Source: a virus
DNA: 27,685 bases
Strand: one strand, 5' to 3'
Virus record (IMG/VR): IMGVR_UViG_3300025736_000150
Span: 1 to 27,685 of that record
Shown here in pieces: positions 4,243-24,864 of the stretch (its first letter is position 1; each line of letters opens with the position of its first letter). The translations under genes were made by a program, and so were the position numbers. A model generated the notes under the pieces. That model worked only from the letters and a program-made list of their open reading frames with translations. It was not told the DNA's origin and searched no databases.

Positions 4243-6435
4243 ATGACATTCGATCTACTACAATCAGAACTGGACGAGATCCGGACCGGTGCCGCTGCAC
4301 GTACATCAGAAAAAGGTACCGTGTTTCAGTCTACCCCGCAGGGGCCGGTAGCGTCTAATTATACCACCTCCCTTGACGAGTCAAATCAGTTTCTACATTT
4401 CATATCGATAGCGAATAATGAGGACAGAAAATTTGTCCGCATAGTTTCGCCATATTTACAGAACTCATGGGTATATGCCTGTACCCGGGTAGCTGCGGTC
4501 AATATTGCACAGACACCCTACCAGATTAAACGCGGGGGGAGAGACATAACAGACTCATCTTATCCGGGCAGGCTGTTTACTTGGGTATCGCCGATATTAA
4601 ACCGGTACACGCTAATGGAGGGTATCAGCACGTGGCTGGATACCCGGGGAGAGTGTTTTATTGAAAAAGTGCGGGCCGATATGGCTGATGCCCCGGTAGT
4701 GCGGCAGAGATTTCTTGTACCTGATTATATGCGGGAAAAGATCGACCCGGCTACCGAGGATATCAGCATGTGGGTCGAAAACAAAAACGGGAAGAAACGA
4801 TTTATCGACCCGGACGATATCATCCATTTTAAAATGTTCAATCCGCTTAATCCTTACCGTGGATTAGCACCCCTTACCGCTTCAATGCTTGGCCTTAATT
4901 CCGATTTGTCCGCAGCGAAGTACAACTGGTCGTTTTTAAATAACGGCTCTACCATGTCCGGTATGATAACAACAGAACAGAACCTGGACCAGACCGAAGC
5001 GGATAACATCAGCAAGCGGTGGGACCGGAAACGGAAGGGGCTGGACAAAGCCTGGTCCGTCCCGGTGTTTGGCAAGGGGTCAGAGTACAAGCCCATCGGT
5101 ACGACTCAAAAAGACATGATGTTTATGGACATGCGAAAATGGACACGGCAGGAGGTTGAGGCCGTACTGGAAACGCCGCCGGCTATGATCGGCCATAATG
5201 AAGAAGCGTCCATCAAATCCAATATCAAAGAGCAGCTCGCAATGTTCTTTACGGGCAAATTAATACCGCGCATGCGGATGATTGAAGAGCAGTATTATAC
5301 CGATTTATTCGATAAGGAAAAAAATATATCCGATTGTGTCCTTGATTTCCAAATATCGGAATTAGCCGCCCTCAAAGATGCGATCGACACCAGGGCCACG
5401 ACGGCGGAGACGCTGGTCCGGACCGGGTACGATATAAACGACGTTAACGAAAAATTGGAATTGGGATTGGCTGAGGTTGCGGAAAAAGAACTGGTTATCC
5501 CAGCAGTACCGAAGCCAAAGCCAGCCGATAAGCCAACCAAGAGCATTGACACCATGACTAAAATCATGGTGTCCGGTAAATCGGTACCAATGGATAAAAA
5601 AGCACTAGACCTATTCGGGCAGAAGAAACGTCGGGAGCTGGACAAGAAAACAACGCCTATCAAAAACGAATGGGCCAAGGATCTGCGGGAAAAGCATATC
5701 TCTAAAATACGGCATGACGTTCTTGATCTGATATACAACAAGGATGCAACGGCGAGCATGTACACCAAGGGTGTCGAGGGCTATAATGATACCGGTATGG
5801 CGGCGGCGAAAAAGATAATAATCAAAACGCTGACCGAGGACATGATCGTTGATTTTCAACCGGACTGGGAAGCTCTGGACGCATCGCTCGTAGATATGTC
5901 CAGGCCGTTTTATACCGCAACTTTTAAGGTTGCCGGGACTGACATTGCTGATAGTATGGGCGTTAATTTTGATGTCACCAATGCCAGGGCAACGGCGGCA
6001 ATCGAAACAAAGTCGATCGATATCGTAGAGGCTAACCGCACTATAAAGGACCAGCTGACAGCCAAAATGCGGCCGGTAATTAAAGACGGCATTGAACGGG
6101 GCTTGAACTATGAGAACATACAGGCCGGACTAAAAGAGGCTTGTAAGGGCGTTACGACGAGCGCATCCCACCGCATGGCTACCGTTGCGAAAACTGAGGT
6201 CAACGGTACACTGAGCCAAGCACGTGACAATACAATGGAGGATCTTGGTATTGAAAAAACGATGTGGGTGTCAAGCAAAAACCCAAGCGACCCGAGGCCC
6301 GACCATGCCGCTGCAGACGGGGAGATTGCTAAACGTGGAGAGACATTCAGCACCGGCCTTTTATATCCACTCGAACCAGGCGCACCGGCGGAGGATGTAA
6401 TCAACTGCGGGTGTATACATATCATGGTAGCGTAA
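4243..6435 (+). CDS. Portal protein fused to a MuF-like head morphogenesis domain
   Basis: A 730-residue fusion. Residues ~70-400 match the HK97-type portal: NSWVYACTRVAAVNIAQTP near the N-terminus, DPDDIIHFKMFNPLNPYRGL, then the channel region with MIGHNEEASIKSNIKEQLA. A lysine/proline-rich linker around residues 420-470 follows. The C-terminal ~190 residues carry MuF signatures: ASHRMATVAKTEVNG, then RPDHAAADGE and the terminal INCGCIHIMV. The portal ring is the DNA gate; MuF domains assist head assembly or are ejected. In many phages these are two adjacent genes, so the fusion is notable but known. The start at 4243 follows a weak AGG. The next gene starts 14 bases after the stop. Confidence 0.9.
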   Translation: MTFDLLQSELDEIRTGAAARTSEKGTVFQSTPQGPVASNYTTSLDESNQFLHFISIANNEDRKFVRIVSPYLQNSWVYACTRVAAVNIAQTPYQIKRGGRDITDSSYPGRLFTWVSPILNRYTLMEGISTWLDTRGECFIEKVRADMADAPVVRQRFLVPDYMREKIDPATEDISMWVENKNGKKRFIDPDDIIHFKMFNPLNPYRGLAPLTASMLGLNSDLSAAKYNWSFLNNGSTMSGMITTEQNLDQTEADNISKRWDRKRKGLDKAWSVPVFGKGSEYKPIGTTQKDMMFMDMRKWTRQEVEAVLETPPAMIGHNEEASIKSNIKEQLAMFFTGKLIPRMRMIEEQYYTDLFDKEKNISDCVLDFQISELAALKDAIDTRATTAETLVRTGYDINDVNEKLELGLAEVAEKELVIPAVPKPKPADKPTKSIDTMTKIMVSGKSVPMDKKALDLFGQKKRRELDKKTTPIKNEWAKDLREKHISKIRHDVLDLIYNKDATASMYTKGVEGYNDTGMAAAKKIIIKTLTEDMIVDFQPDWEALDASLVDMSRPFYTATFKVAGTDIADSMGVNFDVTNARATAAIETKSIDIVEANRTIKDQLTAKMRPVIKDGIERGLNYENIQAGLKEACKGVTTSASHRMATVAKTEVNGTLSQARDNTMEDLGIEKTMWVSSKNPSDPRPDHAAADGEIAKRGETFSTGLLYPLEPGAPAEDVINCGCIHIMVA

Positions 6436-8994: not shown

Positions 8995-9687
8995 ATGAAA
9001 CGTTACATGAAATGGATTATGGCAAGCGCCGTACTGGTGGCGTTGTCGGGGTATGCGGTTGCAGATTTGAACCTCAACGTGTATCTGGAAAATATCACCG
9101 CATTCGGTTCCAAGACCGAAACCGCCGGAACGGATATCTTGATTAATATCCCCGCCCGGTCCGGTGAGAAGATTTGTATTGTTACCGCATCGTTTGAGGG
9201 TGATATCACTGAGCATGATGTATATTTTCAGTGGCCGCAGAGCACCACCACGCTTGACACTGTTATTGCTATTGGTGATACCGTATTCTATGCCACCGAT
9301 AGCCTTAATGATTATAATAGTGCCGTGATTGCTGCGAACGACCTGCTTAATTATCAGTATGATGACGGTACGTGGAATAGTATCACGTGTTCAGTGGTTA
9401 CATTTAATGCCGGCGTACCTCGGATAATTTCCAAGTGTGATGAAATTGCAACTAAGGCGGCAGCGGCCGGCAACTCTGTTGAATACTATGGTATCGAGGG
9501 CGATGGCAACGGATACAAAGTTGTTGTGCCTGATACATCCGCCACCTATACTACTCAGCACCTGGTGACCGTTCCGAGCACCGCTATCGTTGGTAGATCA
9601 AAGGGCCATGGCATGAAGGTTATTAACCAGAACGCTACGAACGCCGGGACTATTAACGGTGTGACTGCTGGCTACATTAATAAATAA
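8995..9687 (+). CDS. Putative virion protein with signal peptide, 230 aa
   Basis: A strong ribosome site (AAGGAGATAAG) precedes the ATG at 8995. Residues 1-23 form a clear Sec-type signal peptide: basic MKRYMK, hydrophobic core, and an AVA-DL cleavage site. The rest is beta-rich and small-residue-rich, with two cysteines (SGEKICIVTASFEG, NSITCSVVTFNAG) and a third in ISKCDE. The gene lies directly after the capsid gene, where decoration or head-fibre proteins are usually encoded, so I infer a virion role. A signal peptide on such a protein is unusual, because virions assemble in the cytoplasm. It could instead be exported to the envelope. Family not recognised. Confidence 0.75.
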   Translation: MKRYMKWIMASAVLVALSGYAVADLNLNVYLENITAFGSKTETAGTDILINIPARSGEKICIVTASFEGDITEHDVYFQWPQSTTTLDTVIAIGDTVFYATDSLNDYNSAVIAANDLLNYQYDDGTWNSITCSVVTFNAGVPRIISKCDEIATKAAAAGNSVEYYGIEGDGNGYKVVVPDTSATYTTQHLVTVPSTAIVGRSKGHGMKVINQNATNAGTINGVTAGYINK

Positions 9688-10106: not shown

Positions 10107-10736
10107 ATGGCAATGTCAATCACCATAGACGCAGCGAATACCCTGGTTGGGGCGGACGTCGATACCCTTGTTAAGCCATATTTGTATATTGATGACTCCG
10201 ATACCGACCTTGACGAACAGTTAAAATTGTGGATCAATGCGGCGTCATGGTGGATATCCACAGAGACCGGCAAGGGTTCCAGTTCACGGAGGCAATTGCT
10301 GGCTGCTGACCTGGTGGAAACATATAGTGGTTGCGGGGATAACATGCTTATCCCCCGTAACTACCCTATTAATTCAACCGCCGCAGCTATTGATATCCGT
10401 GATGATCTGGCCGGGGAATTTGCCAGTACTACAAAACTTTCATCCGATTTAATCCGGATAGCCAACAATAAAACCCGGATTGAATTGTACGGGTCGACGT
10501 TTACTGAAGGTGTAGAGAACGTGCAGCTAACCTATAACGCAGGGTATACAACGATTCCCTGGGACTTACAGGAGGCATGCCTGGAGCTTATATCAATGAT
10601 CAAGGATGAGGTGAACGAAAAAAGACGCGGATTGACTCAACGGCAGACGCCCGACGGTAGCACTGTATTCGTTCCTACCCGAGTACCGAAATATACGCAG
10701 GGCATTATCGACCAGTACCAGAGGAAAACGCTTTGA
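10107..10736 (+). CDS. Head-tail connector (gp6-like adaptor)
   Basis: A 209-residue protein with the adaptor layout: TLVKPYLYIDDSDTDLDEQLKLWI early on, then helical segments ending with LVETYSG, a beta region around NVQLTYNAGYTTIPWDLQEA, and a helical tail (CLELISMIKDEVNEKRRGL). The tract YNAGYTTIPWDLQ is typical of the gp6/gp15-type connector family, which forms a ring under the portal. GAGG lies 8 bases before the ATG at 10107. The next start, a TTG, overlaps its stop. Position among the head-completion genes supports the call. Confidence 0.78.
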   Translation: MAMSITIDAANTLVGADVDTLVKPYLYIDDSDTDLDEQLKLWINAASWWISTETGKGSSSRRQLLAADLVETYSGCGDNMLIPRNYPINSTAAAIDIRDDLAGEFASTTKLSSDLIRIANNKTRIELYGSTFTEGVENVQLTYNAGYTTIPWDLQEACLELISMIKDEVNEKRRGLTQRQTPDGSTVFVPTRVPKYTQGIIDQYQRKTL

Positions 10737-11152
10737 ACGTTCGTGTTGAAATAAAGACGAATGACACCGTGCGGGATATGCGGCGGCTAAAGGCTGCTAT
10801 GCCTAAATTCCACGCAAGGGGCTTAACTGCGGCCGGTCAATATCTTGTGGGTCAGGTTCAAAAGAATAAATTGCAGGGCCAGGCATTGAACAGGGACAGC
10901 TCAAGATTAATTGGCTCTATCGATTTTGATATAGTAAAAAGGGGATTGGATCAGATATTGTATATCGGTTCTAACGCCAAATCAAAGAAAGGTTTTAATT
11001 ATCCCAAGTACTGGGAAATGGAAGCTACCAGGGTTCCGCCACGGCCATATTTGGAGCCGACTATTAGGGAGCGAAACTTCCGGGCAAGGACGCTATTCAA
11101 AAAACAAATCATCCGTGACGTTAATAACATGTTTCCAAGAGGGGCGGCATGA
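10733..11152 (+). CDS. HK97 gp10-like head-tail joining protein, TTG start
   Basis: A 139-residue protein starting at TTG 10733, which overlaps the previous TGA. GAGG stands 8 bases before it, and no ATG exists until residue 15. The sequence has AAMPKFHARGLTAAGQYLVG near the N-terminus, SSRLIGSIDFDIV, then KYWEMEATRVPPRPYLEPT. This is the gp10/minor tail family pattern, with a conserved aromatic-proline-rich segment (PPRPYLEP) before the C-terminal helix. It likely completes the neck between connector and tail. The next start overlaps its stop (ATGA). Confidence 0.78.
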   Translation: MNVRVEIKTNDTVRDMRRLKAAMPKFHARGLTAAGQYLVGQVQKNKLQGQALNRDSSRLIGSIDFDIVKRGLDQILYIGSNAKSKKGFNYPKYWEMEATRVPPRPYLEPTIRERNFRARTLFKKQIIRDVNNMFPRGAA

Positions 11153-11364
11153 CCGGTTATGTTGACTGGCTCATAGCCCATTGGATGGAAGTGGCTATTT
11201 GCATGTATCTATCTGATAGGTCATTGCAAATATTAACTAAGATCGCCAGCCGAACAAAGTACACCTGGGACGATAAAGCTGTTGAAGTGCTGCATATGGT
11301 CGTTGACTCGATCAAGGGAACACTGGCCGGGTTAATCCGTGGCGATTACAAAAAGAAGAAATGA
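11149..11364 (+). CDS. Small protein with hydrophobic N-terminus, 71 aa
   Basis: Starts by an ATGA overlap with the preceding stop. Residues ~4-22 (YVDWLIAHWMEVAICMYLS) are hydrophobic, possibly one membrane segment or a buried helix. Then comes RSLQILTKIASRTKYTWDDK and an amphipathic helix ending in a lysine run. The layout resembles some small phage holin-like proteins with a TKxxxDDK region, but I cannot assign a family. Its position inside the neck and tail genes makes a lysis role uncertain. Its stop overlaps the next ATG. Confidence 0.6.
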   Translation: MTGYVDWLIAHWMEVAICMYLSDRSLQILTKIASRTKYTWDDKAVEVLHMVVDSIKGTLAGLIRGDYKKKK

Positions 11365-11807
11365 TGAAAAAATTAAAACTAACAACTACTAATAGTGCCG
11401 GGAAGCCGTGCTATCCGTCCATATCGCCGATACCCGGGACGGGAAAAATGAGACTGGATCACAATATAATATATCGGATTGAATACGATTGCCGCAAATA
11501 CCGGTACTTAATCAAGGGCGGATTTGAATTTGACGGTGGGAGTATACCGGCTATTGCCCGGCCGATAGTGACGCCGTTTGCCCCATACGGAATAAGGGGC
11601 TTTTTACTACATGATTTTTTATTCAGATTTAACCCTGGAAATATCGGTAGGAAAATAGCTGATATATGGCTGAGGTTGATACTGTTGATTGATAAAGCGG
11701 GGAGCGTTAGGGCGTCCACCGTTGCCATGGGCCTTTGTTTTGGATCATGGTACTCATGGAATGAATGGAGAAAAAAGGACAAACCAAGAGCAATTGGAAA
11801 TATATAA
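11361..11807 (+). CDS. DUF1353-family phage protein
   Basis: Residues ~45-110 match DUF1353: LIKGGFEFDGGSIPAIARPI, then PYGIRGFLLHDFLFRF with the conserved HD pair, then RKIADIWLRLILLI. The GGFxFDGGSIP and LLHDFL motifs are diagnostic. The family is common in tailed phages and its function is unknown; it often lies near structural or lysis genes. The ATG at 11361 overlaps the previous stop. A second ATG follows directly at 11364, so the exact start may differ by one residue. Length (148 aa) is normal. Confidence 0.82.
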   Translation: MMKKLKLTTTNSAGKPCYPSISPIPGTGKMRLDHNIIYRIEYDCRKYRYLIKGGFEFDGGSIPAIARPIVTPFAPYGIRGFLLHDFLFRFNPGNIGRKIADIWLRLILLIDKAGSVRASTVAMGLCFGSWYSWNEWRKKDKPRAIGNI

Positions 11808-11820
11808 AAGGAAAAATATT

Positions 11821-12123
11821 ATGTCAACAGTAGCAATCAAAGAAGATGACAAAGTGCGGATTGTATACAGCGTCCACACTCCGGACTACAAAGGGGCTGT
11901 TGTCAATCCCGTTATTCCGGACTGTGAATTAAAATATATGGACATCATTGACGGGAAGCTTGTTAAAATTAGCAAGGTTGCCATATCCGCAATTGACCTA
12001 AAAGCAACTGAGGCGGCAGAGAAAACAACCAGCGACCGGCAGGCGATAATTGACGAATTAAAAGAAAAGAAATTTTCTGACAATGCTATTGATTATATTA
12101 TGGGAGGCGGTTCCAATGTCTGA
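11821..12123 (+). CDS. Hypothetical protein, 100 aa
   Basis: The ATG at 11821 has AGGA about 10 bases upstream; an open extension to 11689 overlaps the DUF1353 gene in another frame and is disregarded. The N-terminal half is beta-rich (KVRIVYSVHTPDYKG), followed by a helix (AIDLKATEAAEKTTSDRQAI) and a short helical end that reads like a UBA-type or three-helix tail (IIDELKEKKFSDNAIDYIMG). No family recognised. It overlaps the next gene by 8 bases. Probably a small virion or assembly protein, judged only by position. Confidence 0.6.
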   Translation: MSTVAIKEDDKVRIVYSVHTPDYKGAVVNPVIPDCELKYMDIIDGKLVKISKVAISAIDLKATEAAEKTTSDRQAIIDELKEKKFSDNAIDYIMGGGSNV

Positions 12124-12616
12124 TTTTTACGTACAGTTCCCGGCCGGGTCGTTTAAGATGCCTGCGGCAAATCCCGCCCCGCTCGATAATGATACAGGGA
12201 CAAACGGGAATATATTCCGACATCTGCTTGACGATACCACGGAAGAGTTTGTTGAATGCCTACTCCCCGAAGTCCCGGCGGATATTGATACAAGCGGCAC
12301 GGTTACTTTCTTTGCCAAGGGTTACGCAAGTACCGCCGTAGCCTCAAAAAATATTGAATTAAAAGTGTATCACTCGGCAAAGGCCGACGGCGAAAGCTGG
12401 GACGCTGCATATGCTAATAAAGAAAGCGGTGACCTAGCTACCGACGGTACACAGGATGAGCTTGATTTTTTCACGTGGACTGAAACGGTTACAGCTTTAG
12501 GCTGGGCCGCATCGGATCAGATCAGATTGAAGTTGTCACGTATCGCCCCGTCAACGGCAAATCTCGCAGGCGATTGGGGCTTGACTGCATTTGGTATTAT
12601 AATTCCGATTACATAA
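12116..12616 (+). CDS. Putative beta-sandwich virion protein, 166 aa
   Basis: The ATG at 12116 has GGGAGG 8 bases upstream; an extension to 12083 is disregarded. The protein is beta-rich with no charge clusters. FFAKGYASTAVASKNIELKV suggests paired strands, and IRLKLSRIAPSTANLAGDWG closes with a hydrophobic end, FGIIIPIT. This resembles jelly-roll proteins found in phage virions, where a strand carrying an arginine and a small-residue turn precede the final strands. It may be a small tail or head decoration protein. Name and exact role are inference. Confidence 0.6.
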   Translation: MSDFYVQFPAGSFKMPAANPAPLDNDTGTNGNIFRHLLDDTTEEFVECLLPEVPADIDTSGTVTFFAKGYASTAVASKNIELKVYHSAKADGESWDAAYANKESGDLATDGTQDELDFFTWTETVTALGWAASDQIRLKLSRIAPSTANLAGDWGLTAFGIIIPIT

Positions 12617-12627
12617 TAAAGGATATT

Positions 12628-14106
12628 ATGTCATTAGATCTTACAACTATATCAAGTCAATATATCAATATTGATAAGCTCGTTTCTGATGTATCCGCAA
12701 ATACAGAAGGGACGATAATTTTAACAGCAACCGTAACCACTGACGGAACCTACAGGGCGTTGTTCTCTGTCTCGGATACCGACGCAGCAACCCGATTGCA
12801 TTTCTTCATAGATAACAATGAAAAGCTCACTATTTTGGCAATAGTGGCCGGTGAAATTAAATGGGTATTAAAAGCTGATGCCGCTATTGCTCCCGGCACG
12901 TATAAGTTTTCTGTTGCGCATAACGGGACAGAGGCAACGATATATGTAAACAATGTGGCCGTGGCCCAAACGTTTATCGCAAACACGGATCGCACATACT
13001 GGATATCACAATTAACGAATGTTGATAACGCTAGAATCGGTAGTGTGGATGTAAATAGTGGCGGTAATTCTAGTTTTTATAACGGTGCTATTCGATATGT
13101 CAGATATTACAACAGGGCCTTATCCATTGAGGAATTACAAACAATCTACACTGCCAACGGTGCTGATAATATAGTAAATGGGTTGCAAGGCCGGTGGTTA
13201 ATGAACGAGAATACCGCAGGGCAAGCGGCGACCGGGGCCAGTTCTATTATCGATATATCACCAAACGCAAACCACGGAACGCCGGTAAATTCCCCGCTAT
13301 ATGTTGCCGCTCCTGTACAGTTGATACATGCACCGATTGTCTGGATGCCGTCCGCCGCGGTAAGTGTTGTTTCCACCCCCGTTATTTCCCCGGCCGCTGG
13401 TAGTCATATCAATTATGTATCTATTACAATGACATGTGCCACGGCCGACGCTAAAATATACTACACCACCGACGGCAGTACACCGGATGCTACGGACACG
13501 GAATATACAGCTGCGTTTACTGTCACGGCCTCCGCTACGGTCAAGGCCATAGGGATCAAGGCCGCACTGACTGACTCGGCGGTAGCAAGTTCAGCGTTCG
13601 TCATCACCGACCCGGAAGAGCACGTTATAAATGAAATAGCTGACGACATCGTTACGGCCCTTGGTAATATTGCCAACGGCTCCGCAACTACCCCCGGCCG
13701 GTATTGGTTTAACATCGGATTGGCAACCAGGGACTGGAATGATTTTAATTCAATCAAGCCCAATGAGTTCCCCGGCGCAATCGTTTATTTTAAGGGGAGT
13801 AACCCGACTGAATTAAACGATCAGATGACATACCAGACATCACTAAATGATAGTGTGTTCTCTATCCGGGGCGTTGTTAAAGTATTGCCGAATGCGACAG
13901 CCGAACTCGAAAAGCAACTATTGAGATTTAAAAAGGATGTGGAAGCGGCGGTATTGGCAAGCCCAACCCGGTCCGGTCTGGCCGTATTTACATTATTTGT
14001 AAGCGACCAGGTATATAATAATGAGGCTGATTATACGATGTTTTTTGACATGGATTTTTTAATAAGATTTCAATACAAATATGGCGATCCACAACCATTA
14101 ATTTAA
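12628..14106 (+). CDS. LamG + chitobiase-like + tail terminator fusion, 492 aa
   Basis: Three parts are visible. Residues ~20-230 are a LamG/concanavalin-like domain: RALFSVSDTDAATRLHFF, GTYKFSVAHNGTEATIYVNN, then YNGAIRYVRYYNRALSIEEL. Residues ~248-327 match a chitobiase/hexosaminidase C-terminal Ig-like repeat: TPVISPAAGSHINYVSITMT and AKIYYTTDGSTPDATDTEYT. Residues ~331-492 look like a siphovirus tail terminator: NEIADDIVTALGNIANG, FPGAIVYFKGSNP, LEKQLLRFKKDVEAAVL and a last strand leading to YGDP. Position just before the tube gene supports that. The first two domains may be displayed on the tail collar and bind surface glycans. The start at 12628 has AGGA 5 bases upstream; a frame open to 12574 is disregarded. 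Confidence 0.75.
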   Translation: MSLDLTTISSQYINIDKLVSDVSANTEGTIILTATVTTDGTYRALFSVSDTDAATRLHFFIDNNEKLTILAIVAGEIKWVLKADAAIAPGTYKFSVAHNGTEATIYVNNVAVAQTFIANTDRTYWISQLTNVDNARIGSVDVNSGGNSSFYNGAIRYVRYYNRALSIEELQTIYTANGADNIVNGLQGRWLMNENTAGQAATGASSIIDISPNANHGTPVNSPLYVAAPVQLIHAPIVWMPSAAVSVVSTPVISPAAGSHINYVSITMTCATADAKIYYTTDGSTPDATDTEYTAAFTVTASATVKAIGIKAALTDSAVASSAFVITDPEEHVINEIADDIVTALGNIANGSATTPGRYWFNIGLATRDWNDFNSIKPNEFPGAIVYFKGSNPTELNDQMTYQTSLNDSVFSIRGVVKVLPNATAELEKQLLRFKKDVEAAVLASPTRSGLAVFTLFVSDQVYNNEADYTMFFDMDFLIRFQYKYGDPQPLI

Positions 14107-14118
14107 GGAGAAAATCAG

Positions 14119-15477
14119 ATGGGACGCAGAGCAACGAGCGGGGGCGCATGGATAGGTATTGGCCTCGAGACTACATTCGGAACGGGCGTGGCCCCGACGG
14201 TTGCCCTTGAGGCAGGAAGCGAGGACATCAAAGGGAAAATACGGAAAATGCCCAGCGATGCTATTATAAATAGCCGGTTCAAAAAGGACACGTACATTGA
14301 TGGCCGTGATCCGATGGGAAGCATAAAGGACCTGGAAGCAAACCCTGATAACTGCGATCTGTTATTGGCTGGGGTGCTTGGCAACGAGCAGACGGTCACC
14401 GGGGGAAGTTCTCCGTATACCCACGAATTACGCCCGGCAAGCGGAGCGGAAACACTGCCATCATTTTCAATTCAGAAACAGATTGACATAAGAACCCATC
14501 GTTACACCGGGATGAAAATTGATACCTGGAATATGAAAGCTGTACTACATTCCATTTTAAAAATGGATTTTGGGTTCCTTGGAAAGAGCTGGACGAACTC
14601 AGGGCTTGAAACTACCGCAGAGATAACCACCATCGCCACGGTTGCGGATGTAGCTGGAAGCCTCAATGATACGTACATGTACATCAGTTCTCCCGACGAG
14701 GATTATTATATCTGGCTTAATATCAATTCGGGCGGTACAGATCCCGCCATAGCTGGACGTACCGCAATAGCGGTAACCGGGGCAACTGGTATCTCTGCTG
14801 CTGATATAGGAGCCGCCATAGCAACGGCCGTAAATGCTCTTTCTGATTTCGGAGCCACCGGAACCGAGACCGTCACCGTGACCAATGCAAACAAAGGCGA
14901 CTGTGAAAAACCAGAAGACCCGGGAAGTACCGGTTTTACAATCGCCGTTACTACTGCCGGTGTTGATGCTACACCGCCCACGTACAGCACTAAGGTCCCG
15001 TGGACGTTTAGTCATGGGGCCATGAGTATTGACCCCACGAACGGCGACACCCCCGTTGCGGTTTATTACATCCAGGGATTTGAGAGTTCATACTCAAACG
15101 GTATTGACCCAGAAGGGTGGGTAATGGACGGAACGCAATTGCGAAATAGGATTGACAAAGGGCCCGCTACTCTGGGATTAAAGCTTGATGGAATCCTCGA
15201 TGACAACGCTTATGACGCTATGTACACCGGCGATATTGCTAACACTGATATGAGCCTGAGCCTGTTATTCACCAGTTCGGACGCAATCACCGCCGGTAAT
15301 TATTATACGCTTGAGCTTGAAGTGTTGCATTTCAAACTTGACGGCGAAAGTGATCCGGTTATTTCTGGAAAAGGAAATATCCCGTTTCCGCTGAATGGTG
15401 AGGCCATAAAAGTTGGCAGTGATCCGATTTGCAAAATCACACTTGTAAACGGTGATTCCGATAAGTACCTGGACTAA
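14119..15477 (+). CDS. Major tail tube protein with an inserted domain
   Basis: AAGGAG precedes the ATG at 14119. The N-terminus SGGAWIGIGLETTFGTGVAP and the closing region (LELEVLHFKLDGESDPVISG) are typical of long tail-tube proteins that stack into the tail. Residues ~168-284 differ: DTYMYISSPDEDYYIWLNIN, TAIAVTGATGISAADIGAAI, then SDFGATGTETVTVTNANKGD and TGFTIAVTTAG. I recall this as a recurring phage add-on domain in tail and head proteins, probably projecting from the tube. At 452 residues the protein is longer than a minimal tube protein. It is followed by the chaperone genes and tape measure, the standard order. Confidence 0.82.
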   Translation: MGRRATSGGAWIGIGLETTFGTGVAPTVALEAGSEDIKGKIRKMPSDAIINSRFKKDTYIDGRDPMGSIKDLEANPDNCDLLLAGVLGNEQTVTGGSSPYTHELRPASGAETLPSFSIQKQIDIRTHRYTGMKIDTWNMKAVLHSILKMDFGFLGKSWTNSGLETTAEITTIATVADVAGSLNDTYMYISSPDEDYYIWLNINSGGTDPAIAGRTAIAVTGATGISAADIGAAIATAVNALSDFGATGTETVTVTNANKGDCEKPEDPGSTGFTIAVTTAGVDATPPTYSTKVPWTFSHGAMSIDPTNGDTPVAVYYIQGFESSYSNGIDPEGWVMDGTQLRNRIDKGPATLGLKLDGILDDNAYDAMYTGDIANTDMSLSLLFTSSDAITAGNYYTLELEVLHFKLDGESDPVISGKGNIPFPLNGEAIKVGSDPICKITLVNGDSDKYLD

Positions 15478-15515: not shown

Positions 15516-15977
15516 ATGAAGCTTGACAAAGTTATCTGCAAAACCGCCGAAGTGGACGTATCAGCGTACATCGACGGCGAAGAGAAAGCGGTGTTTACCG
15601 TTAAGCAGTACAGCCAGAAAGTACAAAATAAACTTTCTGAACTGAGCCTCAAGGGCAAGGATGTCACCTATAATCCGGTAACACAAAAGCCCGATTTCAC
15701 CAAGATCAAGATTGACAACGATGCCGACACGGCTAACGAAACTTTATATACAAAGTTTCTTGGCGGCGTTGAATCTACCCCGTTTGAAGAGAAGTGGAAC
15801 AAAGAAACTATCGATATACTCTGTGATCGTAACCCTGAAATGATGGAGAACGTTCTCGAGAGTATAGAGGAATTTAACCGCCCTTTTCAGGATCGGAAGT
15901 TGAAGAAATTAGAAAAGCAGCAAGAGACACCCTCGGCGGCTTCCGATTCCAGCCCGACCAAGAAGAACATTGGATAG
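15516..15977 (+). CDS. Tail assembly chaperone (gpG-like)
   Basis: The ATG at 15516 has AGGAG 8 bases upstream. A GTG at 15510 in the same frame is too close to the ribosome site. It encodes 153 residues, starting MKLDKVICKTAEVDVSAY, helical in its middle and charged at the end (LKKLEKQQ). It lies between the tube gene and the tape measure, the invariable place of the lambda G-type chaperone, which binds the tape measure and directs tube length. The unshifted product ends at TAG 15975-15977. The longer shifted product is described separately. Confidence 0.78.
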   Translation: MKLDKVICKTAEVDVSAYIDGEEKAVFTVKQYSQKVQNKLSELSLKGKDVTYNPVTQKPDFTKIKIDNDADTANETLYTKFLGGVESTPFEEKWNKETIDILCDRNPEMMENVLESIEEFNRPFQDRKLKKLEKQQETPSAASDSSPTKKNIG

Positions 15978-16168
15978 CCGGGAGGTGGCGGCCGTTCATC
16001 CAGGCGTACAGTGCCGTCCGTGGAGAGTATGGAGAGTTTGAGGGGCGGTTCCCGGATGGCCGCTCATACATGCAGCAGGACTGGAGAGAGCTTGAGATTT
16101 ACCACATTATACAAACCGAAGTTAAGGCCGATATTAAAAAGAAAATGGAAGAGGTAAAAAGTGGCTGA
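15516..16168 (+). CDS. Tail assembly chaperone gpG-T, -1 frameshift product
   Basis: A second frame, -1 relative to gpG, is open from just after TAA 15875-15877 to TGA 16166-16168 and has no good start of its own. Slippage at CCCTTTT (15881-15887) would join 124 gpG residues to 93 further residues, 217 in all. The extension is protein-like: EEIRKAARDTLGGFRFQ, EEHWIAGRWRPFIQAY, then QQDWRELEIYHIIQTE. Tryptophans and helices of this kind are typical of T domains, which recruit the tail tube subunit. The frame closes 8 bases into the tape-measure gene. Frameshifted G-T products are known in lambda-like phages. Confidence 0.78.
15881..15887 (+). other. Slippery heptamer CCCTTTT
   Basis: In the gpG frame this reads C CCT TTT. 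Slipping back one base gives CCC and TTT, so the A-site tRNA re-pairs perfectly and the P-site differs only at the wobble position. It lies four bases after the last stop of the -1 frame (TAA 15875-15877), the first point at which a shift could yield the long product. No other XXXYYYZ heptamer was found before the gpG stop. Confidence 0.72.
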
Positions 16169-17885
16169 CGTTTCAGGAGTAAAAATCGGCGTATTTTCTG
16201 AGGACAAAACTAAAAAGGGTTTTGATTCTGCGAAGAAGGGTGTAGGAAAGCTGACCAGTGCTGTTAAAAATTACGGTGCTGAAATGCTTGTTGGTGCGCT
16301 TGCCGTAAAGAAAGCGGTTCAATCTATATATAGCCTGATAGATGGTACCGCCACCGCCGGTGATATGTTCGATAAAATGAGCAAACGGACATCAATATCA
16401 ACTACATTTCTTTCTGAATTTGACCATGTAGCAAAATTAGCAGGAACGAACATTTCGGTATTGGAAGCGTCTTTTAAACGGGCCGCTAAAGCCCTGGGTG
16501 ATGCTGACGAGGGGTTAGCTGAAAGTGTCCGGACATTTAATAACCTTGGTATTGAGATACATAAAACTGACGGGACATTAAAAGATATTGATACGGTTAT
16601 CCTTGAAACCGCTGATAGGTTTTCAAAGATGACTGATAATACTAAAAAGATGTCTATCGCTCAAGAGCTGTTTGGCCGTGGCGGTCTTGCCATGATCCCG
16701 ATACTCAACCAGGGAACAGAAGCGATCAGGGCCCAAATGGAGGAGGCGGCATCACTCGGGCTTACATGGACAACTGATGCTGCTGGCGGTGCTGCTGCTT
16801 ATGTTGATGCTATGCAGCGATTAAAATCTGCATGGATTGGGATAAGAAACAATAGTATTGTTCCGCTGCTTGCAAAAATAACCCCAATGCTTGAGCGTAT
16901 GGCTATTGCTATGGGCATGGAAACACAGGGCATGAAGTTACAAAAAACCCTTGACGGAGTTAAGTTATCGATACAGGAGCTATATAACGAGATAGGCGTA
17001 AAGGGTGCAGATGCCCCTATACTTCTTGATGACGGAAACATAGCGACAATGCGCGAATACATGGGCCAATTAAAAGAACAGGCCGCCGGACTTAAGCAGC
17101 AGATAGCCGATTTGAATAAAACGGTTGACGCTGGAATATTAGGCGGTGCTGCTGGCGGTACAGGCGATGGCGGAGGCGATACCGGCGCTCTATTACCTCT
17201 CGCTGGATTTGAAGAATTTACGGTAGTAACTGATAGCATGGATTTCGCTTTGGGTAATGCCTCAAATACGCTTGAAGATTTAAAGGATGGAGCGCAGGAC
17301 GTGACAGTTGATTTAATGCCTAGATTTACACAGGCCTTTATAGATTCAAAAAAGGCCATCGTTGACCTTGCCTCCAGTGGCGCCAATGCCATGTCCTCCC
17401 TATTTAGCGCCATCGCCGTGAACGCAACCAAGGGAAAGCGGGCCTGGCTCAGTGCAATGTCAGGTATATCGCAGCAGATACCGGGATTAATTACTCAGTT
17501 TATCGCCCTAAAGAATGCCAAGATTGCCGCATCATTGGCCGGGGCCGGTGCAGCTCTCGGTATATTCGGCGCCGTGGTAGGAATAGGCGCATCCCTCATG
17601 TCTGCATACAGCTCTAATGATGACGATTATTCTACAGCCGGTATGGATGACGGACTGACAAACGCCGCCAGTTCAAGCCGCTATTCTTCCGTCACACGCC
17701 GCAACCCGCAGACTTTCAGCATATCCCCTCAGGTGATTATATCGTCATCCAACGGGGTGCAGGTGTTCGGTGAAGAGGGCGTAACCGGCGGGGCATTGGC
17801 TAATATAATGCGTGAAATATTAACCAGAGATATTAGTAATGGGGCCTTTGCCCTTGACGATTTAGTACCGGAGGGCGCAGGATAA
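16161..17885 (+). CDS. Tail tape measure protein
   Basis: Starts at GTG 16161 with AGAGG 6 bases upstream, overlapping the frameshift frame of the chaperone by 8 bases. Of its 574 residues the first ~60 are helical and basic. The tape-measure signature follows: SIAQELFGRGGLAMIPILNQ, then EAASLGLTW and AYVDAMQRLKSAWIGIRNN. A glycine-rich linker (GGAAGGTGDGGGD) lies around residue 330, and a hydrophobic region near residues 455-490 contains SLAGAGAALGIFGAVVGIG, the usual transmembrane-like part. The length suggests a rather short tail, near 85-90 nm by the rule of about 1.5 angstrom per residue. Confidence 0.87.
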   Translation: MADVSGVKIGVFSEDKTKKGFDSAKKGVGKLTSAVKNYGAEMLVGALAVKKAVQSIYSLIDGTATAGDMFDKMSKRTSISTTFLSEFDHVAKLAGTNISVLEASFKRAAKALGDADEGLAESVRTFNNLGIEIHKTDGTLKDIDTVILETADRFSKMTDNTKKMSIAQELFGRGGLAMIPILNQGTEAIRAQMEEAASLGLTWTTDAAGGAAAYVDAMQRLKSAWIGIRNNSIVPLLAKITPMLERMAIAMGMETQGMKLQKTLDGVKLSIQELYNEIGVKGADAPILLDDGNIATMREYMGQLKEQAAGLKQQIADLNKTVDAGILGGAAGGTGDGGGDTGALLPLAGFEEFTVVTDSMDFALGNASNTLEDLKDGAQDVTVDLMPRFTQAFIDSKKAIVDLASSGANAMSSLFSAIAVNATKGKRAWLSAMSGISQQIPGLITQFIALKNAKIAASLAGAGAALGIFGAVVGIGASLMSAYSSNDDDYSTAGMDDGLTNAASSSRYSSVTRRNPQTFSISPQVIISSSNGVQVFGEEGVTGGALANIMREILTRDISNGAFALDDLVPEGAG

Positions 17886-23046: not shown

Positions 23047-24864
23047 ATGAATAAATTAATACTGATTTTGTTAATGGCAGGAAGTTCGTTTGCGGGTATT
23101 CAGAAAATATCAAAAATCAGTGTACGGGATACGATATTTACGAATACAATCCAGTGCAGTACCGATATAATAATCGGTGATCGCGTTTCAGCCGGGGCGC
23201 ATCTTTTGACACTCTATAAAGCGGCAGCACCAAAATTATACATGATAAATAATAACACAAACGACACGGCAGCGGCAGAAATATTAATGGGCTACCAAGG
23301 CGAATCCCCGGCGGGACGTATATCGATTGTAAACAATGAAAACCTAAACAGATTTAAAATAAGGACAAGAAGCATTGCCGCGAATAGCTGGATTGATGCA
23401 ATTAGTATTGAGAGGTCAACGGGTCATATTGGAATCGGTACCGATTCACCTGGGGCGTATAAATTATATTCTGCTCATCGTAGTTACATCGATAGTTTAT
23501 ATTTTGGAATATTAATGTCTGTCCCTGACACGTCTGAAAATGCGGCTCACTCCGACTCGGCAGACAAAGCAGCGTCGGCAGTACTTGCCCCGTCATACTT
23601 ACCGCTTGCGGGCGGTACAATGTTCGGGGCTATCGCAATGAATGCGCAGGAGATAAACAATATCGGAAACACTGATTTTAATAATGGGTCAGCAATGAAT
23701 TTTGGAGGTGCTTCGGTTATATCAAATTTGCTTTCGCTTTCGATGACCGGTGACATCGCAATGAATGCGCAGGAGATAAACAATATCGGAAACACTGATT
23801 TTAATAATGGGTCAGCAATGAATTTTGGAGGTGCTTCGGTTATATCAAATTTGCTTTCGCTTTCGATGACCGGTGACATCGCAATGAATGCAAATGCATT
23901 AACCGGTGGGGTTTCCGTATTAAAAAATACCCCAATAGTTGGCAGTGTTGGTGATACGGCGCTGGTTGTTCATTCTGCACCAGATACGATCAAAGTTGGT
24001 TTTGGTTTGGGTGGTCATATTGGTATTATATATGATGATCCCGATAGTGCTGCAACACCTGGCGGAATTATTGGGCTTGATGTTTTGGCAAATGACGCTG
24101 GCGATTCCGTGAATGTTATCGGGGCAAATATCAACGTATCAGGTGGTAAAAATATAATCAAGGGCATAGTTGTCAACGGCTTGTCAATGGGTGCGAATGC
24201 AGTACAAACCGGCATAAACATTAATAATTTTAAAACCTCTATAGATGCAGACGGTGACACCGGCCTTGTCACCCCGGGGATAGTTAAATCAATGAAGAAT
24301 ATTTCAGATACCATCGGAGTATCTCACGATGCCGGGGTTTGGGCGGAGCTGCAAATTAAAGAGGGCGGAAACCGTGATACCCTGCATTGGCGGAGATCGG
24401 ATAGTCTGGTATCAAAACTACCGGGGATAAATCCTCATTCAACGTTATTTTCCGTCACGGACAGTACCTATGCAAACGCCACTAATAACCAGTGGTACAG
24501 GGTTAATACTGACACGTGCGAAACTTACGGTGGTATTATTGCCGACTGCAATTCAAGTTTTGTTACCCACAGTGGCAAGAGGCATATGCATGTAATTCTT
24601 CACGCTGTTTTATCACTGACGGGAATAGGAAACGATGAAGTATTTGAGTGCTCATTTTTCAGAAATCAAACCGAGCAAATCTGGAGTACATACGGTAAAT
24701 CTGTTGGATCAACACAGCTAGATACGGATAAAATAATATTGCTTGGTTCCTGTATTTTGAATCCCGGTGACAATCTAGAAGTAAGGGAGCGGACAACGTC
24801 GGGGGATAACCACGCCATGACAATTACCCACGTAACGTGGATGGTCGTAAAGGTGGGGGAATAA
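23047..24864 (+). CDS. Tail fibre-like protein with signal peptide and exact internal duplication
   Basis: A 605-residue protein. Residues 1-16 form a signal peptide, MNKLILILLMAGSSFA before G. A stem with a typical fibre tract, PLAGGTMFGAIAMNAQEINN, follows near residue 183. Residues 196-236 and 237-277 are an exact 41-residue duplication (NNIGNTDFNNGSAMNFGG is inside each copy). The C-terminal ~135 residues resemble a trimeric jelly-roll head: SGKRHMHVILHAVLSLTGIG, then GSCILNPGDNLEVRERTTSG. It likely binds the host surface at the tail tip. A signal peptide on a fibre is unexpected. Its stop overlaps the next ATG by one base. Homology is by pattern only. Confidence 0.75.
   Translation: MNKLILILLMAGSSFAGIQKISKISVRDTIFTNTIQCSTDIIIGDRVSAGAHLLTLYKAAAPKLYMINNNTNDTAAAEILMGYQGESPAGRISIVNNENLNRFKIRTRSIAANSWIDAISIERSTGHIGIGTDSPGAYKLYSAHRSYIDSLYFGILMSVPDTSENAAHSDSADKAASAVLAPSYLPLAGGTMFGAIAMNAQEINNIGNTDFNNGSAMNFGGASVISNLLSLSMTGDIAMNAQEINNIGNTDFNNGSAMNFGGASVISNLLSLSMTGDIAMNANALTGGVSVLKNTPIVGSVGDTALVVHSAPDTIKVGFGLGGHIGIIYDDPDSAATPGGIIGLDVLANDAGDSVNVIGANINVSGGKNIIKGIVVNGLSMGANAVQTGININNFKTSIDADGDTGLVTPGIVKSMKNISDTIGVSHDAGVWAELQIKEGGNRDTLHWRRSDSLVSKLPGINPHSTLFSVTDSTYANATNNQWYRVNTDTCETYGGIIADCNSSFVTHSGKRHMHVILHAVLSLTGIGNDEVFECSFFRNQTEQIWSTYGKSVGSTQLDTDKIILLGSCILNPGDNLEVRERTTSGDNHAMTITHVTWMVVKVGE
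23632..23877 (+). repeat. Exact 123-bp tandem duplication in the fibre gene
   Basis: Copy 1 is 23632-23754 and copy 2 is 23755-23877, with no differences seen on base-by-base reading. A partial third copy (14 bases) starts at 23878. The unit equals 41 codons. Perfect identity implies a recent event or an assembly artefact. Confidence 0.92.

Follow-up and report, generated by a model that had tools for sequence, protein, structure and literature searches.

The window analysed here is the whole of IMG/VR virus record IMGVR_UViG_3300025736_000150 (27,685 bases), which may be an incomplete genome. It comes from an uncultured long-tailed phage and encodes a siphophage structural module: genes for the small and large terminase, a portal-MuF protein, a protease, the capsid, an adaptor, Neck1, a DUF1353 protein and two small proteins, followed by the fusion gene under study, a tail protein, a probable chaperone, the tape measure and tip or fibre proteins. 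The features relevant to this work are as follows.

4243..6435, + strand: portal-MuF fusion protein (PF04860, 1.8e-52; PF04233, 1e-10)
10107..10736, + strand: head-tail adaptor (phrog_442, 3.8e-13)
10733..11152, + strand: Neck1 / tail completion protein, HK97 gp10-like (phrog_5, 6.2e-7)
11361..11807, + strand: DUF1353 protein, encoded in the Neck1-fusion interval (PF07087, 3.5e-6; phrog_1158, 1.3e-12)
12116..12616, + strand: stand-alone 166-aa beta-rich protein (phrog_34856, function unknown, 3.1e-14; ribosome site GGAGG)
12628..14106, + strand: LamG / CHB_HEX Ig-like / predicted tail-terminator fusion gene, 492 aa (open frame, ribosome site, domain matches, terminator profile, model)
12658..13137, + strand: LamG_3 / ConA-like lectin domain, residues 11-170 (Pfam PF13385, E 8.5e-8)
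13390..13587, + strand: CHB_HEX_C_1 / Fn3_assoc Ig-like domain, residues 255-320 (Pfam PF13290, E 5.1e-16; PF13287, E 1.9e-13)
13618..14103, + strand: predicted tail-terminator domain, residues 331-492 (profile built without the window sequence; AF2 plus Foldseek)
14119..15477, + strand: tail protein just 3′ of the fusion gene; probable major tail (tube) protein (phrog_290, 2.4e-28)
15516..15977, + strand: probable tail assembly chaperone (weak PF08748, E 0.04; encoded after the tail protein and before the tape measure)
16161..17885, + strand: tape measure protein (phrog_8125, 1.5e-31)

The tail protein next to the fusion gene carries the phrog_290 label ‘minor tail protein’; it is probably the major tail (tube) protein, its position matching that of the major tail protein in loci L003, L004, L008 and L010, and its gene is preceded by a strong ribosome site of its own. 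No stopper gene was recognised in the window. The PHROGs label of the DUF1353 gene is tail assembly chaperone, for which the Neck1-terminator interval is an odd place. Elsewhere in the record, the left end of the contig carries two arrays of 21-bp tandem repeats (positions 1-180 and 685-1065, with 8.6 and 18 copies), and a perfect 123-bp tandem duplication lies at 23632-23891 within a fibre-like gene. Apparent signal peptides (MKRYMKWIMASAVLVALSGYAVA, MNKLILILLMAGSSFAG) open two proteins of the virion block (8995-9687 and 23047-24864), one of which adjoins the capsid gene while the other is fibre-like.

The fusion gene is a single unbroken ORF running from the ATG at 12628 to the stop codon at 14106, with AAGGA just 5′ of the ATG. 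A preliminary description had proposed that it encodes a LamG domain, a chitobiase-like Ig repeat and a C-terminal tail terminator. Pfam bore out the first two, since LamG_3 scored 32.9 bits against a cut-off of 27.6 and CHB_HEX_C_1 58.8 bits against a cut-off of 22. The LamG part was also matched by the Sialidase N-terminal family (PF02973, E 1.1e-6), and residues ~171-230 look like an additional LamG-type strand region. Its closest solved structures are the sialidase N-terminal lectin domains 1sli and 6er2 (E ~3e-5), which makes sugar binding by the LamG domain plausible. CHB_HEX_C_1 is an Ig/Fn3-like module, frequently a spacer, and sugar binding of its own need not follow.

The C-terminal ~160 residues gave no Pfam or PHROGs match even at E ≤ 1, a search of viral contigs, genomes, phages and plasmids returned no close relative of the domain, and pairwise BLAST against the terminators of the nearest tail-protein relatives gave no match. 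The search probe was a generic terminator-like consensus, composed after the window sequence was known; tblastn with this probe led to proteins annotated as tail terminators, from T5-like phages among others, and all tests after this step used real sequences only. BLASTP of the domain against gp37 of Pelagibacter phage HTVC202P gave 25% identity over 130 aa (E 2e-4 in a single comparison). When a profile of nine real terminators, window sequence excluded, was scored against 302 window ORFs, the fusion protein ranked first of the 302 with 14.2 bits (E 5.4e-4) versus 4.5 bits (E 0.5) for the next ORF. Across the custom profiles lacking the window sequence, its E-value over the 302 ORFs lay between 2e-4 and 5.4e-4 (3.8e-4 in one reading). 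The domain alone scored 17.5 bits with the nine-terminator profile, and none of 2000 shuffles came near (best, 6.4 bits). Upon leaving out each of the nine sequences in turn, the fusion came first in eight of nine cases, with some scores weak: without the Proteus Stubb sequence it fell to third with 1.7 bits, and without HTVC202P it was still first, but at just 4.6 bits. A profile of the S-CBS1 family by itself did not detect the fusion protein. The profile scores are modest and in part fragile. With a larger profile the domain reached 18.0 bits and all other ORFs 8.6 or less, and the terminators of GBK1 and THSA-485A, neither of them in the training set and both located solely by synteny beside relatives of the window tail protein, scored 21.1 and 15.2 bits, respectively. 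We regard this comparison with untrained terminators as the most convincing control.

The location of the gene points in the same direction. It lies after Neck1 and directly upstream of the probable tail-tube gene, and the order adaptor, Neck1, fusion, tail protein and tape measure, with other genes between Neck1 and the fusion, is the same as in L003, L004, L008 and L010. An AF2 model of the C-terminal domain, whose input alignment included 33 terminators from IMG/VR, had a pLDDT of 76 and a pTM of 0.75. Nearly all top ranks in a Foldseek search with this model were tail terminators, among them T5 p142 (1.6e-8), lambda gpU (7e-8), P74-26 and R4C, the last three being matched although their own families had been left out of the alignment. 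Because the alignment held terminators, the model is not independent evidence, and the failure of a single-sequence model (pLDDT 41, no terminator match in Foldseek) indicates that it is biased by that alignment. Taken together, custom terminator profiles, Foldseek and synteny agree on a C-terminal tail terminator, as the preliminary description had it, with Pfam and PHROGs silent; the last 160 residues do match a purpose-built terminator profile.

We then considered whether the fusion is genuine and whether it is the only terminator. Between the Ig and terminator domains no in-frame start codon is preceded by a Shine-Dalgarno site; for this reason, production of a free terminator by internal re-initiation was rejected, and the extra domains should be present on every terminator subunit unless removed by cleavage. 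Read from the sequence, the gene thus combines three domains in one open frame with no internal ribosome site and a place before the tail-tube gene. Terminator profiles detected no second terminator in the 27.7-kb record, possibly incomplete, so that a rival terminator gene within the window, which the preliminary description had named as a finding that would count against it, was rejected. Viral contigs, genomes, phages and plasmids contained no relatives of the fusion, and the LamG-CHB part, the tail protein and the portal as queries against the same sets returned nothing useful or the identical contig L002 alone. The fusion is known from one contig; L002 ends at about window position 11683, short of the gene. 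No such fusion was seen in any of the 196 terminator ORFs of the retrieved loci either; the sole long open frame running upstream of one (L015) lies 5′ of an annotated 164-aa start. The Foldseek matches, taking the best 50 per library, were all of 260 residues or fewer, and we found no neck tag built onto the tail terminator itself in the open-access literature.

A survey of the interval upstream of terminators covered 80 loci whose terminators are of the S-CBS1 type (phrog_4204, E 7e-41); 72 of the loci were readable. The gene immediately 5′ of the terminator varied: it encoded an Mtd_N-type fibre of 202-213 aa in 51 of the 72, fibres of other types in one locus each (205 aa and 390 aa), the stopper in seven, a 106-109-aa protein in another seven (one of two members tested had a weak discoidin, F5/8 C, match), a 132-aa ORF in two, a 114-aa ORF in two and a Kelch-type protein of 944 aa in one. 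Examples among loci L126-L205 are L130:2366-3004, L146:2675-3004 and L198:6-2867; L198 has three consecutive fibre-like genes in this slot. The stopper-terminator interval of S-CBS1-type environmental phages is therefore a variable slot in which adhesin-like genes are frequent: it may contain Mtd_N fibres or discoidin-like proteins, or no gene at all. A survey of prokaryote genomes for terminators, covering one archaeal phylum (Euryarchaeota, 194 genomes), gave an S-CBS1-type terminator in one genome (L206, NZVG01000010.1; 56% identical) on a MAG-binned contig that is probably a misbinned phage contig. The LamG-CHB cargo of the window, fused to the terminator, fits the variable-slot pattern, and the gene of the 166-aa protein, the immediate upstream neighbour of the fusion gene, possibly does so too; this protein may be a second cargo or neck decoration in the Neck1-fusion interval. 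A broader reading, which we put forward tentatively, is that environmental siphophages might in general use the stopper/Neck1-terminator interval as a cargo slot for adhesins shown at the neck, with unrelated genes (Mtd_N fibres, discoidin-like and LamG proteins) replacing one another in it; the cargo fused to the terminator here would then mark where such cargo is placed in the virion, and the neck would be a second site of host recognition.

From the profile match, the AlphaFold match, the gene position, the absence of an internal ribosome site and the lack of a second detectable terminator, we infer a hexameric terminator with six lectin-like arms; the hexamer, the virion location, the outward orientation of the arms and glycan binding are all predictions. 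On balance we favour gene 12628-14106 being the sole tail terminator, whose six neck arms would serve weak glycan attachment. The C-terminal domain would assemble into a hexameric ring closing the tail tube and joining it to the head, and the N-terminal Ig-like spacer (CHB_HEX) and LamG lectin would extend from the neck, so that up to six lectin-like tags probably surround it; this placement is drawn from known terminator biology. Most likely, the arms would let the phage bind weakly, multivalently and reversibly to glycans of the host surface or matrix; they would assist the receptor-binding proteins of the tail tip and act in the manner of the carbohydrate-binding modules (CBMs) on lactococcal neck passage structures.

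An assembly or sequencing artefact joining an adhesin gene to a terminator gene could account for a junction seen in one contig, where the identical contig L002 stops at ~11683. We consider this highly improbable, given that the junction is in frame and falls between domains, composition is unbroken across it, and a strong ribosome site precedes the following gene. It is also improbable, though less so, that the C-terminal domain is another small neck or tail protein (a completion protein, stopper or chaperone) and that the terminator lies in missing sequence. The silence of the curated Pfam and PHROGs libraries, the possible incompleteness of the record and the equally unrecognised stopper gene would agree with this. 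However, profile, Foldseek and synteny all favour a terminator, Neck1 and the adaptor have separate genes, and the structural genes from terminase through tape measure are otherwise present.

The main rival to adhesion is a structural role, in which the terminator is real and its N-terminal domains form a collar that rests on the capsid or steadies the head-tail joint and binds no glycan. LamG and CHB domains may each have a structural role, CHB_HEX belongs to the Ig/Fn3-type modules, and an Ig-like domain of the R4C adaptor, lying beside the head, is credited by its authors with local stability and not with adsorption (PMC10276861). We judge such a collar possible yet unlikely: the outer domain is a LamG with lectin domains as its nearest solved relatives, and fibre- or lectin-type genes fill the same interval in other phages. 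The tail tip is where host recognition is usually looked for. If the reading as a lectin-bearing terminator is true, the ring would hold an adhesin at the neck in a fixed number of copies, and it would become testable what the fibre-like genes close to terminators do. The fusion would also be a natural example of a terminator tolerating a large N-terminal extension.

The preliminary description had called adhesion domains at the neck unusual. This does not hold for lactococcal phages (TP901-1 and the 936 phages), whose neck passage structure bears CBMs that bind host cells weakly and in high multiplicity (PMC6669499); what stands is that their fusion to a terminator is unusual. The likeness to our phage is carbohydrate-binding-type modules at the neck, where the fusion is predicted to sit. 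The neck passage structure is a distinct and dispensable fibre protein that has a BppU-like N-terminus, a proposed attachment to the portal or connector and 18 copies (PMC6669499), whereas the domains described here lie within the terminator and six copies are expected. A neck passage structure is marked by a BppU-like N-terminal beta-sandwich and a trimeric coiled coil; in the fusion, Pfam found LamG and CHB_HEX with no BppU-type domain or coiled coil, and by this comparison the fusion is not a member of that class, though it may work like one. The C-terminal domain may share the fold of T5 p142, lambda gpU and SPP1 gp17, as the alignment-dependent model predicts, and its gene, like theirs, comes before the tail-tube gene; those proteins are ~130-165 aa long with no lectin or Ig domain, in contrast to the 330-aa N-terminal extension of the fusion. 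Since larger terminators with additional domains are already known (PMC11784142), the novelty is the kind of domain and not the extension as such. The roseophage R4C adaptor resembles the fusion in having an accessory, peripheral Ig-type domain on a neck ring protein, and serves as an example of a neck Ig domain that may be purely structural (PMC10276861); unlike in the fusion, that domain is on an adaptor dodecamer, comes with no lectin and is proposed to be structural. Auxiliary adhesins of a comparable kind are the CBMs fused to other tail ring proteins, evolved Dit and extended major tail proteins (PMC6669499); these lie at the tail tip or tail tube and not on the terminator. Finally, S-CBS1-type phages (L008, L126-L205) carry adhesin-like cargo, Mtd_N fibres or discoidin-like proteins, directly 5′ of the terminator; there the cargo is in separate genes, whereas in the window phage it is fused.
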